Assembly: GCF_002159495.1 (NCBI RefSeq)
Contig: NZ_NFIT01000005.1
Coordinates: forward strand, 62,001 to 126,000
Source: Olsenella sp. An293
GTDB lineage: Bacteria; Actinomycetota; Coriobacteriia; Coriobacteriales; Atopobiaceae
Reading direction: 5' to 3'
DNA length: 64,000 nt
Notes under the pieces: generated by a model
The model's database searches: none
What the model was told of the DNA's origin: nothing
Seen by the model: the letters and a program-made list of their open reading frames with translations, nothing else
In this document: positions 19,874 to 63,959 of the stretch, piece by piece
How the letters are laid out: every line of letters begins with the position of its first letter
How positions within the stretch are numbered: the first letter of the stretch is position 1
Made by a program: the position numbers and the translations under genes

Positions 19874-22462
19874 ATGGCAGACGCATCCGCAGCCACGACC
19901 ATCGATGAGGGGCCCAACGCCCCCGGCTCGCTGGGGAGGCTCATCCCCTGGCCGGACGAGTCAACCTATCCCAACATCCCCGCCGAGGAGGCGCTCGACC
20001 TCTTTTTGGGCTGGGTCGAGTCTCGCGGCATCGAGCTCTGGCCCCACCAGGAGGAGGCGCTTCTCAGCCTGGCCGCCGGCGACCACCTGATCTTGGGCAC
20101 GCCCACGGGCTCGGGCAAGTCGATGGTGGCGCTGGGCATGTGCTTCATGAGCGTGTGCACCGACCGACGGGCCTACTACACCGCCCCCATCAAGGCCCTG
20201 GTGAGCGAGAAGTTCTTTGACCTCGTGGAGCTCTTCGGCCGTGAGAACGTGGGCATGATCACCGGAGACGCGGCCATCAACGCGGAGGCGCCGATCATCT
20301 GCTGCACGGCGGAGATTCTCGCCAATCAGGCCCTCCGCGAGGGCGAGACGTGCGACGTGGGCTGCGTGGCCATGGACGAGTTCCACTTCTACGCGGACCC
20401 GGACCGCGGCTGGGCCTGGCAGGTGCCGCTGCTCACCCTCCCCCACGTGCAGTTCCTTCTGATGAGCGCCACGCTGGGCGACACCTCCTCCATTGCCGCC
20501 GCGCTCTCCGAGCACACGGGAGGGCGCACGGTGGACACGATCGCGGACGCACCGCGCCCCGTGCCGCTCTCCTACGAGTTCGTGGACACGGCCCTGGAGG
20601 GCACGGTGGAGCTCGCGCTGCGCGCGGGCGAGGCGCCGCTCTACATCGTGCACTTCGCGCAGGACGCGGCGCTGGCGAGCGCGCAGTCCCTGGCGAGCTA
20701 CGGCGTCTCCACCAAGGAGCAGCGCGAGGCCATCAAGGAGGCGATCAGGGGCACGCGCTTCACCACCACCTTTGGCAAGACGCTCCAGCGCCTGCTCGGC
20801 TGCGGCGTGGGCGTGCACCACGCGGGCATGCTGCCGCGCTACCGCCTGCTCGTGGAGAAGCTCGCGCAGCAGGGCCTGCTGCCGGTCATCTGCGGCACGG
20901 ACACGCTCGGCGTGGGCATCAACGTGCCCATTCACACCGTGGTGCTCACCGCGCTCTCCAAGTTTGACGGACGCCGCATGCGCCACCTCAACGCGCGCGA
21001 GTTCCACCAGATCGTGGGCCGCGCCGGACGCGCCGGCTTTGACACCGAGGGCCACGTCATCGCCGAGGCCACCGAGTACGACATCGAGAACGCCCGCGCG
21101 CTCGCCAAAGCTGGCGGCGACCCCAAGAAGGCGCGCAAGATCAAGACGAAGAAGCCGCCCGAGGGGTTTGTGGGCTGGAACAAGCAGACCTTCGAACGCC
21201 TGGAGGCGGCCGTGCCGGAGCCTCTGCGCCCGCGCATGAAGGTCACCCACTCGATGGTGCTCGCCGAGGTCGAGCAGGGCGGCGACGCCTGGGCGCGCGT
21301 GCACAAGCTCATCGAGGACTCCGCGCAGCCGGCCGAGGAGAAGGCCGCACTTGCCACGCGCGCCGACGAGATCTTTGCCACGCTGCTCGACGCCGGCGTG
21401 GTCACGCGCGAGGAGGGCCCCGAGGGCGACGTCTGGTCCACCACCGTGGACCTGCCGGACGACTTTGCCCTCGACCAGCCGCTGTCACCGTTTCTGCTCG
21501 CCGCGCTGGAGCTTCTGGACCCCGAGTCGGAGACCTACGCGCTCGACGTCATCTCCATGGCAGAGGCCACGCTCGAGGACCCGTTCCAGATCCTGCGCGC
21601 CCAGCAGCGCGCCGCGCGCGACCGCGCGATGTCCGAGATGAAGGCCGAGGGCATCGAGTACGACGAGCGCATGGAGCGCCTGCAGGAGGTCACCTGGCCC
21701 AAGCCGCTCGAGGAGCTGCTCGACGCCGCCTTTGCCGAGTACTGCGAGAAGGTTCCCTGGGCGCGCGACTTTGCGCTCTCCCCCAAATCCATCCTGCGCG
21801 ACATGGTGGAGACGGCGAGCGACTTCAAGGAGTACGTAGGCCGCTACGGCATCGCGCGCTCCGAGGGTCTGCTGCTGCGCTACCTCTCCGAGGCGTTCCG
21901 CGCCCTCGACCGCACCGTGCCGCTCGACAAGCGGGACGAGCGCCTGAACGACATCATCGCGTGGCTGGGACTTGTGGTGCGCACGGTGGACTCCTCGCTC
22001 GTGGACGAATGGGCCGCCGCCGGGGAGAGCTCCGCCGAGGGGCTCGACGCCGCCCCGCCCGCCGCGGACGAGGTCGTGCGCGACCGTCGCGGCCTCACGC
22101 TGCTCGTGCGCAACGCCCTTTTCGCCCGCGTGCGGCTGGCGGCGTTTGGCAGCGTCGACGAGCTCGGCAAGCTCGACGCCGAGTGGGGCTGGCGGGCGCC
22201 GGTGTGGCAGCGCGCCCTAGACCGCTTCTACGAGGAGCACGAGGAGATCGTGCTCGACGGCGACGCACGCAGCGCTGCGTATTTCTCAATCGACGCGTCC
22301 GACGAGCGCGCGACCCACGTCTGGCACGTGCACCAGGTCTTCCGCGACTCCGACGACGACCGCGACTTCGGCATCTGGGGAGACGTGGATCTCGACGCCA
22401 CGCAGGACGAGGGCGCCGTGGTGTTCTCGAGCTACCGCGTAGGCTTCGTGGACGACGAGTAG
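19874..22462 (+). CDS. DEAD/DEAH-type helicase with DUF3516 (Ski2-like)
   Basis: This 862-residue superfamily 2 helicase has Walker A 'GTPTGSGKSM' near residue 75, the DEAH-like box 'MDEFHFY', motif III 'LLMSATLGD', 'VGVHHAGMLPRYR', 'CGTDTLGVGINVPIHTVV' and motif VI 'QIVGRAGRAG'. A long C-terminal region of about 450 residues matches the DUF3516 actinobacterial RNA helicase type. The role is probably RNA remodelling or decay; this is an inference from the Ski2-like core. ATG 19874 follows GGAGGA. Confidence 0.9.
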   Translation: MADASAATTIDEGPNAPGSLGRLIPWPDESTYPNIPAEEALDLFLGWVESRGIELWPHQEEALLSLAAGDHLILGTPTGSGKSMVALGMCFMSVCTDRRAYYTAPIKALVSEKFFDLVELFGRENVGMITGDAAINAEAPIICCTAEILANQALREGETCDVGCVAMDEFHFYADPDRGWAWQVPLLTLPHVQFLLMSATLGDTSSIAAALSEHTGGRTVDTIADAPRPVPLSYEFVDTALEGTVELALRAGEAPLYIVHFAQDAALASAQSLASYGVSTKEQREAIKEAIRGTRFTTTFGKTLQRLLGCGVGVHHAGMLPRYRLLVEKLAQQGLLPVICGTDTLGVGINVPIHTVVLTALSKFDGRRMRHLNAREFHQIVGRAGRAGFDTEGHVIAEATEYDIENARALAKAGGDPKKARKIKTKKPPEGFVGWNKQTFERLEAAVPEPLRPRMKVTHSMVLAEVEQGGDAWARVHKLIEDSAQPAEEKAALATRADEIFATLLDAGVVTREEGPEGDVWSTTVDLPDDFALDQPLSPFLLAALELLDPESETYALDVISMAEATLEDPFQILRAQQRAARDRAMSEMKAEGIEYDERMERLQEVTWPKPLEELLDAAFAEYCEKVPWARDFALSPKSILRDMVETASDFKEYVGRYGIARSEGLLLRYLSEAFRALDRTVPLDKRDERLNDIIAWLGLVVRTVDSSLVDEWAAAGESSAEGLDAAPPAADEVVRDRRGLTLLVRNALFARVRLAAFGSVDELGKLDAEWGWRAPVWQRALDRFYEEHEEIVLDGDARSAAYFSIDASDERATHVWHVHQVFRDSDDDRDFGIWGDVDLDATQDEGAVVFSSYRVGFVDDE

Positions 22463-22541
22463 CAAGCCGCGGCGGGCCGGGGCGACGCGCCCCTTCCCGC
22501 CGCGACCCGTCGGAGCGCTTCGGATGGAGCACCCTCACGTC

Positions 22542-22653
22542 GTAGGCAGTTTTTGCGAGCAGCCCCGGCGCCTCGCCTTGCCCAGCATAGTTTTCGCAGG
22601 TAAGAAGGTCGTCACTTCGGCATCTACTCGGGCTTCTTCCAAAAACTGCCTAC
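22542..22653. repeat. GTAGGCAGTTTTT palindrome, copy 1
   Basis: GTAGGCAGTTTTTG (22542-22555) pairs perfectly with CAAAAACTGCCTAC (22640-22653), with a loop of 84 bases. It lies just downstream of the nuclease-like gene and between convergent genes. A second copy sits at 23846. Confidence 0.85.
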
Positions 22654-22668
22654 AACGCGAACCTCGGG

Positions 22669-23655
22669 TTATCCGATGGGCACTGTTCCTCGGAATAGGC
22701 GCGCCTCCGGATCGGTCAAGCGAGCATACAGGTCTTTCTGAGCGGCGCGCTCGTCAGCAGTATAGGACCTCTGCTCAATGCCAAACCGCTCCCTCACCAT
22801 CCAGATGAACGTCTCAAACTTCTCGAACGTTCTCATCTGTCCCCAAGTTGCAGAGACTGTCTTGACCCCCATTGCCTCGAGAACGTTTCTACGCGCCTGC
22901 GTATGGTCGTAGCGATACTTTCCCGTATGGTACTCATAACTGTCGTATTCAATGTTTCCGCGAACAGACGGTAAGTAGATGTCCCCCTTGAAGTACTTTT
23001 CCCCTACGAGAGGACGAAGCCTCTCGTCAACGTCGATGCGCTGGTTGGCGACTATTTCCGGCATTGCCCAGCCACCATGCTCCGGGGGGAGAACAAAGGT
23101 GAGCGCCAGCAGGATTTCCATCGGGGAAGCCGTGCAGGGGACTACATATTGGAGGGCCTTCCGGGCAACGACGAGTCCGTATACCTTCGAGAGGGAGTCG
23201 AGACACGTCCCCATCCTTTCTGGCAGAGTGAGGGTCTCTCGTTTTCCGGCATAATCTCTCCCCTTATCTGATATTGCGAACTCCGCACACAGATGGCAAC
23301 CGATTTCGACCATCCTAGTGAAGTCGCTTGTTGACGCGAGCTGCAGATATGTGAGCTCGGGAGAACAGACGCAGTTTGTGCCCGAAAGCTCGAAGAGCGA
23401 TCCCGAGGGGAGGCCCGCCTTCCACACATGGGTGACAACGCTCTTGAGGTGGCGCTGGCTGGAGCGATCGGGAACGAGCACGTGCAGCGGGACATCCTCG
23501 GAATAGCCAAAGGGGAGGTGCGCTTCCTTAATCTCACTCATGTTTGCGCTCGCCCAGGCAAGATTCTTTCTCTCAGAACCGTTGGGAATGCACTCGTCCC
23601 CCGTCTTCGTAAGCCAGTAGCGCAACGCAGACTCATGACTCAAGCAAATTGGCAT
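22669..23655 (-). CDS. Vsr/DUF559-like nuclease-fold protein, probable acquired gene
   Basis: This 328-residue protein begins 'MPICLSHESALRYWL'. Its C-terminal part carries the pattern of a DUF559/Vsr-type endonuclease fold: 'SPMEILLAL', then 'KGDIYLP', 'IEYDSYEYH' (E-x-D core), 'DHTQARRNVLEAMGV' and a final Thr/Ala strand. The N-terminal part (SHESALRYW, 'VCSPELTYLQLAS') resembles AbiEi-type antitoxin proteins. Base composition is visibly less GC-rich than the neighbours. The gene is bracketed by two copies of one palindrome. ATG 23655 follows GGGAGG. Activity and role are unproven; defence or mobile-element function is a guess. Confidence 0.7.
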   Translation of the reverse strand: MPICLSHESALRYWLTKTGDECIPNGSERKNLAWASANMSEIKEAHLPFGYSEDVPLHVLVPDRSSQRHLKSVVTHVWKAGLPSGSLFELSGTNCVCSPELTYLQLASTSDFTRMVEIGCHLCAEFAISDKGRDYAGKRETLTLPERMGTCLDSLSKVYGLVVARKALQYVVPCTASPMEILLALTFVLPPEHGGWAMPEIVANQRIDVDERLRPLVGEKYFKGDIYLPSVRGNIEYDSYEYHTGKYRYDHTQARRNVLEAMGVKTVSATWGQMRTFEKFETFIWMVRERFGIEQRSYTADERAAQKDLYARLTDPEARLFRGTVPIG

Positions 23656-23845
23656 GTCTACCTCCCAGCTTGATGGGCTCGTAGGAGGCAGCCTAGCGAC
23701 TGCGTGGATTTCCCGTCTGCCTCTCTTCTGCACGGGAGCTTCCCTCAATCTGCTACCCCAGCTAAATCGGTCAGGACAATTCACTGAGGCGTCGCGGAGG
23801 CGGAAATTGTTTCGGTGAGAGGCGCCCGTTTCGGGGCGTGCGGCT

Positions 23846-23964
23846 GTTGTAGGCAGTTTTTTGAAAGAGCCCGAGTACAAAGGCAGACCGCAAGGCCTCA
23901 GCCTGCACTTTCTCGGCGCATTATGCGTCTCTACAGTACCCTGCCCGAAAAAACTGCCTACAAC
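23846..23964. repeat. GTAGGCAGTTTTT palindrome, copy 2
   Basis: GTTGTAGGCAGTTTTTT (23846-23862) pairs with AAAAAACTGCCTACAAC (23948-23964), 17 perfect bases, loop 85 bases. The loop also holds a short GAGCCCGAG/CTGCACTTT stretch that is not obviously related to copy 1. The region 23656-23845 before it has no other recognisable feature. Confidence 0.85.
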
Positions 23965-24026
23965 AGTGGGGGCGCACAGCCCCACTTCCTGCGCACCCCA
24001 TGGGTAGTAAAGTTATAAGTTAATTT

Positions 24027-25028
24027 TTAGCCCTCAAAAGGCACCACGTGGGCAACGGCGTCAGCCGGCTGGATGCGCGAGCCGCCGTTGTCGAGGTCCA
24101 CGAGCACGTAGCGGTCGTTGCCCATGCCGAGCTCCTTCATGTAGGAGAGCTGGCGCAGGCCGTGGCGGGTCTCCATGCGCTCCACAAGGGCGTGGCGGTC
24201 CTCCTCCCTCATGGCGTAGACCAGGTCGACGCAGGCCTGGTCAATCGCGAGGATGTCCGTGGAGGCGAGGATGCCCACGTTGGGCGTGACCACGGGCTCG
24301 GCCGCCGTGCCCTCGCAGTCGCAGGAGACGGACATGTTGCGCATCACGTTCACGAAGGTGATGCGCTCGCCGAAGTGGTCGCACACGGCCTTGGCCGACT
24401 CCATCATGCGCTCCATGAACTCCTCGTCCGAGATGTCCCACATGTCGTCGGAGCCGGGCGTGGTGTGAATCTCCTTCTTGCCGATCCTGCCGTCGGCGCA
24501 GCCGATGCCGATGTTCTTGGCCGAGCCGCCAAAGCCGCCCTTCGTGTGCCCCTTGAAGTGCGTGAGCACGAACAGGGAGTCGTAGTCGGCCAGGTGCGAG
24601 CCCATGTGCACCTCGTCGAACCACTTCCCGCCCGCCACGGGAAAGGGCGTAGCACCGTCCTCGTCCATGATGTCCACGGGCGCGAAGGTCCAGCCGTTGA
24701 CCTCGAGGGTCGCCCGGTGCTTCTCGGTGGTGTCGCGGTCACCGGCGTAGTAGCTGTTGGTCTCCACGATGGTCGCGTCCGGGAGGTCGGCCTTCAGGAG
24801 CTCCGCCACCCACGGGCGCGGGATGATGTTGGGCCCGTGCTGCTCCCCGGTGTGGAGCTTGACGGCCACCTTGCCGGAGACGTTACCGCTCACCTGCTCG
24901 TACGCGCGGCGCAGGCCCGCCGCGGAGAGGTCGCGCGTGAAGTAGACGATCGACTCGTTGCCGCCGCGCTCCTCGTAGGGGACGTAGCGCTCGCCGCCGG
25001 TGCCGGGCTGCGGGTTCTTCTCGGCCAT
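24027..25028 (-). CDS. DUF362 domain protein
   Basis: This 333-residue protein is of the DUF362 family, often annotated as Fe-S or ferredoxin-linked. Recognisable blocks are 'KVAVKLHTGEQHGPNIIPRPW', 'ETNSYYAGDRDTTEKHR', 'LTHFKGHTKGGFGGSAKNIGIGCADGRIGKK' (two adjoining motifs) and 'ILASTDILAIDQACVDLVY'. No classical CxxCxxCxxxC cluster motif is visible, only 'SCDCEG'. The biochemical role of the family is unsettled. ATG 25028 follows AAGGAGG. A TATACT-like -10 lies upstream near 25060. Confidence 0.85.
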   Translation of the reverse strand: MAEKNPQPGTGGERYVPYEERGGNESIVYFTRDLSAAGLRRAYEQVSGNVSGKVAVKLHTGEQHGPNIIPRPWVAELLKADLPDATIVETNSYYAGDRDTTEKHRATLEVNGWTFAPVDIMDEDGATPFPVAGGKWFDEVHMGSHLADYDSLFVLTHFKGHTKGGFGGSAKNIGIGCADGRIGKKEIHTTPGSDDMWDISDEEFMERMMESAKAVCDHFGERITFVNVMRNMSVSCDCEGTAAEPVVTPNVGILASTDILAIDQACVDLVYAMREEDRHALVERMETRHGLRQLSYMKELGMGNDRYVLVDLDNGGSRIQPADAVAHVVPFEG

Positions 25029-25209
25029 GATGCCTCCTTGTTTAGAGTTCCTGTGACTCGTAGTATACACTTTAGAGACGTATCGTCACTTGTTTTTCGG
25101 CAAACATGAGAACGCCCCGTCAGCAGGCATCGACGGAGCGTCCTCGAAAGAAGAGGGGTTCGGCGCGGCGCATGGCAGAGTCCGCCCCGAAGGGAGGTGG
25201 CAGCGGGTA

Positions 25210-63855: not shown

Positions 63856-63959
63856 CCCCAAACTCCACACGTGGTGGTTCTTTCTCTAATTCGTATTAAT
63901 CCTACCTGGGGTTTTCCGTTACCTAAACAAAAGAGAAACACCACGTGTGGAGTTTGGGG
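63856..63959. repeat. Palindrome CCCCAAACTCCACACGTGGTG, copy 2
   Basis: CCCCAAACTCCACACGTGG (63856-63874; pairing runs to 63876) pairs perfectly with 63939-63959. The pairing continues imperfectly through TTCTTTCTC / AGAGAAA. The loop of about 60 bases is AT-rich. It shares 20 arm bases with copy 1 at 56.87 kb. Confidence 0.9.

Follow-up and report, generated by a model that had tools for sequence, protein, structure and literature searches.

A nuclease-like gene and its companion palindromes in Olsenella sp. An293 and related genomes

The locus and the predicted protein

The window is a stretch of 64,000 nucleotides from Olsenella sp. An293. It is part of contig C31 of a 2.31-Mb genome. A nuclease-like gene lies there between two palindromic elements, and the whole unit sits in a slot with one gene at each border. 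The features of the locus, in window coordinates, are as follows.

19874-22462, plus strand: left-border gene, helicase-like as judged by eye
22539-22656, plus strand: downstream element, 118 nt, 12 nt past the stop of the nuclease-like gene, with outer arms GTCGTAGGCAGTTTTT / AAAAACTGCCTACAAC
22669-23655, minus strand: nuclease-like gene, 328 amino acids plus stop, with a predicted AbiEi-like N-terminal domain (about residues 1-172) and a predicted EDxHD/Vsr-like domain (about residues 177-293)
23656-23845, minus strand: leader, 190 nt, from the upstream element to the start codon
23846-23964, minus strand: upstream element, 119 nt, with perfect 19-nt arms CTGTTGTAGGCAGTTTTTT spanning 23844-23966
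24027-25070, minus strand: right border of the slot, a putative DUF362-like gene

The 328 codons of the nuclease-like gene occupy 22672-23655 on the minus strand, with the stop beyond. The GC content of the gene is 55.7%, compared with 69.4% and 66.4% for the neighboring genes, so the lower GC content reported by the first-pass annotation holds. That annotation also described two copies of one palindrome around a single gene. Both copies do match a covariance model built from 11 element copies, scoring 86.7 and 95.2 bits, and both are among its 11 training sequences. They are oppositely oriented by best model strand. The annotated size of 119 nt is right for the upstream copy; the downstream copy contains 118 nt from 22539, and the 112 nt from 22542 given earlier was a trimmed version.

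No second gene was seen between the two palindromes. No AbiEii-like toxin gene was seen adjoining the unit, whose neighbors, judged by eye, are helicase-like and DUF362-like. The window contained no tRNA, and the search against Rfam returned a chance-level match only (E 5). A terminator role was rejected, the region having one terminator-like site against a shuffle mean of 1.6. The 9-mer GGCGAGAAG / CTTCTCGCC is frequent, occurring at 22 places in the window. It recurs in the intergenic DNA of relatives and also within several palindromes.

By sequence, the window protein has a sub-threshold Pfam match only, to MTES_1575 (PF18741; E 0.033, 14.7 bits against a cut-off of 38.2). This profile matched 3 of 23 orthologs at an E value of 1 or below (best E 0.013). 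The protein shares with MTES_1575/DUF559-like proteins of Actinomycetota the motif E-[YAV]-D-[SG]..H......D..R, read by eye; unlike them, it falls under the Pfam cut-off. The origin of the name MTES_1575 is taken from PMC3710099. Y1_Tnp was absent from the Pfam matches of 23 family members up to E 1. NCBIfam, PADLOC and PHROGs gave no match for the window protein, and the PDB searched by sequence gave a single irrelevant match (E 1.8). One of two paralogs scanned had a weak match to the PADLOC entry "HEase" (E 5.7e-4).

The AlphaFold2 model of the protein had a mean pLDDT of 86. Modeled residues 177-293 aligned with the homing endonuclease I-Bth0305I (3r3p) at Z 9.8 over 96 residues with an rmsd of 2.6, and with Vsr at Z 7.4. 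Modeled residues 1-172 aligned with AbiEi at Z 7.4, or 8.2 when modeled alone; the latter alignment covers 118 residues, and AbiEi residues 67-195 only. The N-terminal model also aligned with Rv2827c (Z 5.7), with MenT1, a toxin of nucleotidyltransferase type (Z 5.7), and with an aminoglycoside nucleotidyltransferase (Z 4.8). Because MenT1 and the aminoglycoside enzyme are nearly as close as Rv2827c, the link to AbiEi goes no further than fold resemblance. Foldseek alone found no match at an E value of 0.001 or below (E 1.1 to 3r3p). The fold statements rest on a second structural aligner, for which middling Z scores are common. No variation was seen among 16 orthologs at E180, D225, E236, D238, D250 or R255, and H243 is at least 90% conserved in the ortholog alignments. 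We tentatively take E180, D225, H243 and D250, by eye, to be the putative catalytic E, D, H and D of the EDxHD motif.

The predicted structure resembles an AbiEi-like domain joined to an EDxHD/Vsr-like nuclease. Both likenesses had been proposed from sequence motifs; by sequence they come down to the sub-threshold Pfam match, whereas the predicted structure supports the two of them. Unlike I-Bth0305I and Vsr (comparison source, in part: PMC3943268), the gene is not in an intron or intein, it is flanked by dispersed palindromes, and its product has the AbiEi-like domain. Unlike AbiEi of type IV toxin-antitoxin systems, which its N-terminal model resembles starting only at AbiEi residue 67, it has a nuclease domain attached and no AbiEii-like neighbor in view.

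The joining of a predicted AbiEi-type antitoxin fold to a nuclease fold would suit a toxin-antitoxin or defense-like unit, as would the weak HEase match of one of the two paralogs scanned. The nuclease would then be harmful or act on invading DNA, and the palindromes would be control sites, self-marks or decoys. We consider this quite improbable, given the single gene between the palindromes, the lack of a PADLOC match for the window protein, and family members that are spread over the chromosome. A pattern-based scan confirmed no relatives in viral contigs.

The palindrome and its gene across the genus

Single-strand folding of both flanking elements beats all 200 shuffles on either strand. 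The z values of DNA folding energy for the two were -3.6 and -4.9, and -6.6 and -6.75. The 13-mer GTAGGCAGTTTTT occurs 11 times in the genome, and its reversed control does not occur. The genome contains at least eight elements: the pair around the gene and six solo copies. The covariance model matches 29 of 31 genomes of the genus at an E value of 0.001 or below, and in its counts a palindrome is often scored on both strands.

In 102 elements (best strand), arm positions 1-12 are paired in 86-100%. Three or four pair types occur at several arm positions, and none of the twelve positions is equaled by any of 300 shuffles. The 102-element alignment was fitted to the model, and the arm-pairing test was made on raw ends. 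The interior contains T-tracts, AGTA/TACT motifs and a central AAAA..GCAGGTAG. The length is nearly constant at about 119 nt and the inner motifs are conserved. The arm includes GTAG in only some of the families, and GCAGGTAG is conserved in the middle of the element. Some species have copies of the arm repeated inside the element. On rough gene calls, no gene overlaps 82 of the 91 element loci, and a gene 3' end lies within 60 nt of 49 of 66 elements. A separate large palindrome, at G000:C3:76181-76309 (L031 and L032), has doubled arms GTTAATTGGGGACGTGTTTTTTCGTGCAGACAGTTTG, which are unlike those of the element family of the nuclease gene.

The protein search covered the 31 genomes of the genus and returned 6-18 family matches in each. 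A clear ortholog was retrieved from 22 further genomes, with 44-73% identity or, in one partial case, 74%. Twenty-two protein-search loci are in named genomes, labeled Thermophilibacter, Olsenella, Atopobium sp. or Atopobiaceae. The ortholog comparison used one locus in each of 23 genomes, this one included, with one genome per species. An element lies 9-66 nt past the stop in 22 of the 23 loci. An upstream element was detected in nine, ending about 175-197 nt before the aligned start, a spacing similar to that of the leader here. Both sides were detected in eight loci, and all 23 have at least one element. The element search around seven distant family members (L068-L074) gave two weak matches only (E 0.035 and 0.039).

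The frame contains 320-330 codons in 22 of the 23 loci. The remaining locus, L067, matches residues 166-325 only in a frame of 179 codons and may be a broken gene. Apparent in-frame stops inside many orthologs were dismissed; they are normal stop codons that the alignment overruns.

Elements are also present in six of the eight genomes without an ortholog. Across the 31 genomes, gene presence against element presence gave a Fisher p of 0.06. The first-pass annotation proposed looking for the gene with the same flanks elsewhere, and named as refuting its reading orthologs consistently lacking the palindromes or palindromes widely present without the gene. The gene recurs with at least one palindrome at every ortholog locus examined. 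Palindromes without the gene are, taken literally, widespread as well, both here (six of eight elements) and in the gene-less genomes. This is how REP-like repeats behave, and it does not separate the readings considered below. As far as sequence comparison goes, the gene and its palindromes form a conserved couple with genome-specific arms.

The arm sequences differ between species, on both sides together. We compared 60 further copies from 12 genomes with the arm of their own genome's gene. The copies were chosen from the listed model matches, so low-scoring copies are under-represented, and one of them (L346) adjoins a gene remnant and is not solo. A match of at least 10 of 11 was found for 38 copies. 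Label shuffles gave a mean of 7.1, and none of 5,000 reached 38. The other 22 copies fell below this match, including all tested copies of G013 (5), G003 (3), G023 (2) and G024 (5). All five G024 copies agree with the arms of the G007/G023 gene, and two copies from G007 agree with the arm of the G024 gene. The helicase-slot gene of G024 (L386) is an in-frame remnant of about 96 codons with internal deletions. Palindrome copies are still dispersed in G024 though its nuclease gene is reduced to this remnant. Protein similarity and arm similarity are weakly correlated over 21 loci (rho 0.28, reached by 9 of 5,000 permutations), and shared ancestry could be the source.

Paralogs and orthologous sites

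The gene is one of a family with about ten members per genome (range of protein-search matches, 6-18), and many of these members are flanked by a palindrome private to each. Both flanks share a word of at least 13 nt in 41 of 62 distant paralogs, against 7.4% of mismatched pairs. Three of 38 window ORFs pass the same test. So do 7 of 23 orthologs, as many lack the upstream copy or have a diverged one; that set contained 22 loci without L067, plus L105 (a second G007 ortholog). In this genome six of nine family members pass (L045, L108, L120, L129, L130 and L131), and L114, L126 and L128 fail. The paralog examples inspected have true palindromes on both sides, with unrelated arms. L110, L119 and L120, which are syntenic orthologs with neighbors judged by eye, have different arms that match across the gene within each species. 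Enrichment of the core motif around the paralogs is moderate: it occurs in 21 of 62 upstream flanks and 14 of 62 downstream flanks, and in 11% of random 450-mers. Two near-identical G007 paralog copies, L134 and L135, were rejected as a case of recent transposition. L135 is an inverted duplication at a contig end, followed by what looks like sequencing adapter, and was taken to be an assembly artifact; it was left out of the 62.

Two further families are represented in the window.

1708-1851, no strand assigned: solo element of the second family, with double arms TGAGGGTATGTACAC; the gene flanked by this family is the paralog at G000:C1:252733
63856-63959, no strand assigned: downstream palindrome of the third family member, with perfect 21-nt arms CCCCAAACTCCACACGTGGTG; the gene is on the minus strand

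The second family (arms GAGGGTATGTACAC) has a 14-nt arm core with 61 exact copies in this genome, and controls have none. It is absent from 17 of the 31 genomes. Dispersal within the genus was tested for two families, the second and that of the window gene. The third family member has its stop at about 64018, about 18 nt past the right end of the window. Its upstream partner palindrome has the same 21-nt arms.

The elements might instead be ordinary REP-like repeats mobilized by RAYT/Y1 transposases, with the nuclease gene a passenger between two copies. The core motif GCAGGTAG does contain GTAG. Y1 transposase matches were found in 28 of the 31 genomes, two of them in this genome, and a match in G008 (G008:C1:996997-997734, near L266 and L410) lies about 270 nt from an element. 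However, G026 (one contig), G019 and G005 have no match at an E value of 0.001 or below and carry 23, 25 and 10 element matches, counted on both strands. The Y1 count and the number of element matches are also uncorrelated (rho -0.04). Y1 mobilization is therefore unlikely, and we give it a slim chance. A passenger gene would leave unexplained why arms match the gene of their own genome and why the flanks of 41 of 62 paralogs match each other with unrelated arms.

Empty sites, which the first-pass annotation led one to look for, were found. The interval between aligned flanks in the helicase-like/DUF362-like slot is 1,546 nt here and 19 nt in G006. In the comparison with G019 it is 1,565 nt against 10 nt. 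The right-border gene of G006 and G019 comes almost directly after the helicase-like gene. G007 has 1,470 nt where G005 has 7 nt, and the right-hand neighbor of G007 differs. A single element is missing from the hisF slot of G006, which measures -3 nt against 156 nt here. The empty slots could be losses.

There were 26 orthologous-site pairs, not independent of one another, among the 91 element loci. Thirteen of them have different arms (at most 16 of 22 matches). The orientation of the core is kept in 11 of these 13. Their interior identity averages 0.617, against 0.553 (sd 0.052) for unrelated pairs, and exceeds the 95% level in 4 of the 13. Given the kept orientation and the inherited interiors, some elements appear to have been inherited in place with both arms changed. 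The others may have been replaced or may have diverged. The kept orientation (11 of 13) and inherited interior (4 of 13) suit change in place no less well than insertion. The sites compared gave no sign of a transposition event, a target-site duplication or an exact junction; the intergenic flanks are too diverged for an exact junction to be seen.

In the hisF 3' slot (L234-L262) and the helicase slot (L367-L394), the palindromes differ, by eye, from one species to another, as though these slots were hot spots. The palindromes of other species in these slots (for example, those with arms AATAACGCGCAC and TGCCATAACG) lie beside none of the 86 nuclease units compared. The hisF slot of G016 (L236, 2268-3461) contains a 1.2-kb insertion with other small genes. 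By eye, these resemble nucleotidyltransferase and HigBA-type toxin-antitoxin modules.

AbiEi antitoxins bind inverted repeats and repress their own promoter. In the main rival reading, the palindromes are operators or structural sites, bound by a protein with a regulatory or host function. The flanking copies would be autoregulatory, the dispersed elements would be a regulon or chromosomal sites, and specificity and sites would coevolve. We think this rather unlikely but rate it above the other rivals. It would account for a nearly constant element length, conserved inner motifs and the predicted AbiEi-type domain. It also suits sites that species have inherited in common while the arms changed in place, with an interior still recognizable at 4 of 13. 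The positions argue against it: gene 3' ends, rather than promoters, are where most copies lie (no more than 60 nt away for 49 of 66), and the element lies shortly past the gene's own stop in 22 of 23 loci. Putative catalytic residues that are invariant in 16 orthologs, the presence and absence of elements, and the different palindromes in the same slot of other species also count against it.

Proposed mechanism and known systems

Our preferred explanation, which we hold to be about evenly poised, is that gene and palindromes are cognate partners, functioning in the manner of a REPtron with another enzyme. The nuclease would spread or homogenize its own palindrome. In this mechanism, the AbiEi-like domain would read the private outer arms. 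The EDxHD/Vsr-like domain would cut the element, which would probably then be in the form of an extruded or single-stranded hairpin. Through repair or rejoining, the resident element would be copied to further intergenic sites. The chief effect would be to convert existing elements to the resident arm type, a homing-like conversion. A copy kept on one or both sides of the gene would let gene and palindrome be inherited together.

The comparison documents, at the level of DNA and translated sequence, a flanking element, dispersal, concerted genome-specific arms and swapped arms at orthologous sites. It likewise documents absences at syntenic sites, putative catalytic residues that are conserved, and matched paralog flanks. 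We infer recognition of the arms, cutting, and nuclease-driven spread or conversion. The idea of a cassette in which a nuclease moves, maintains or polices its repeats had been put forward in the first-pass annotation. It stands as to the conserved couple, the genome-specific arms, the dispersal and the empty sites; the nuclease may move, convert or only bind the palindromes. One palindrome tracking its gene between species suggests an undescribed way for repeats to spread or stay alike.

REPtrons, in the parts of PMC3733652 and PMC8266576 drawn on here, contain an enzyme gene flanked by a palindrome that is also dispersed intergenically. Their palindrome families are species specific, and gene-less genomes contain the repeats too. 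The couple described here has all of these properties. Unlike in REPtrons, the enzyme is not a HUH/Y1 transposase, its predicted fold being I-Bth0305I/Vsr-like. The elements seem to differ too, with about 119 nt, T-tracts and a central core in place of GTAG-tagged hairpins of 20-40 nt. Several unrelated families are present per genome, and arms differ at inherited sites. In TIRtrons, a RAYT-like gene lies between long terminal inverted repeats, and some of these repeats make up repeat families (PMC3733652, in the same part). They share with this unit an enzyme gene between repeats, but their enzyme is a tyrosine transposase. As for homing-type spread, some syntenic sites lack the unit. Many bacterial genomes contain REP-like palindromes, and their enzymes, according to the same portions of PMC3733652 and PMC8266576, are tyrosine transposases. 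Some REP families, the CGTC REPs, are listed there without a known enzyme (PMC3733652). No description of a link between a nuclease gene and palindromes was found in searches of the open-access PMC literature.

More tentatively, and with doubt, these units may be an unrecognized class of nuclease-palindrome couples, with several unrelated specificities per genome and probably present in other Actinomycetota. Each would drive its private palindrome by cutting and by repair from its own type. If true, this would be a bacterial molecular drive on intergenic palindromes, convergent on REPtrons with unrelated chemistry, with both arms of the copies changing jointly where a site is inherited. Position, covariation and recurrence in paralogs connect private palindromes to a gene family that has no curated profile match. 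The palindrome link would give these nuclease-like proteins a testable function. Several natural specificity variants per genome would allow a protein-DNA code to be read out. The dispersed sites also offer an instance of concerted change, traceable species by species.

Outside the genus, PF18741 was searched in 60 genomes of the phylum. We tested 16 of 30 loci and 19 of 20 loci of a second set, which made 35 rows and 34 distinct loci. The 14 loci left out of the first set had long multidomain or fragmentary frames, and L200 was left out for a short flank. A word of at least 17 nt was shared across the flanks in 5 of the 34 loci (L168 and L208-L211). Mismatched pairs outside the genus reached 17 at most, which L211 equals. 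The pattern CGCCGAGCGTGCA, in the genus of G096, has 0-7 matches in 25 relatives (controls, 0-2), and dispersal there is weak. G096 itself has nine matches, with none in the controls. Four of the five passing loci are from G096, where four of six loci tested pass. In the G096 flanks inspected, palindromes begin at or just past the stop codon.
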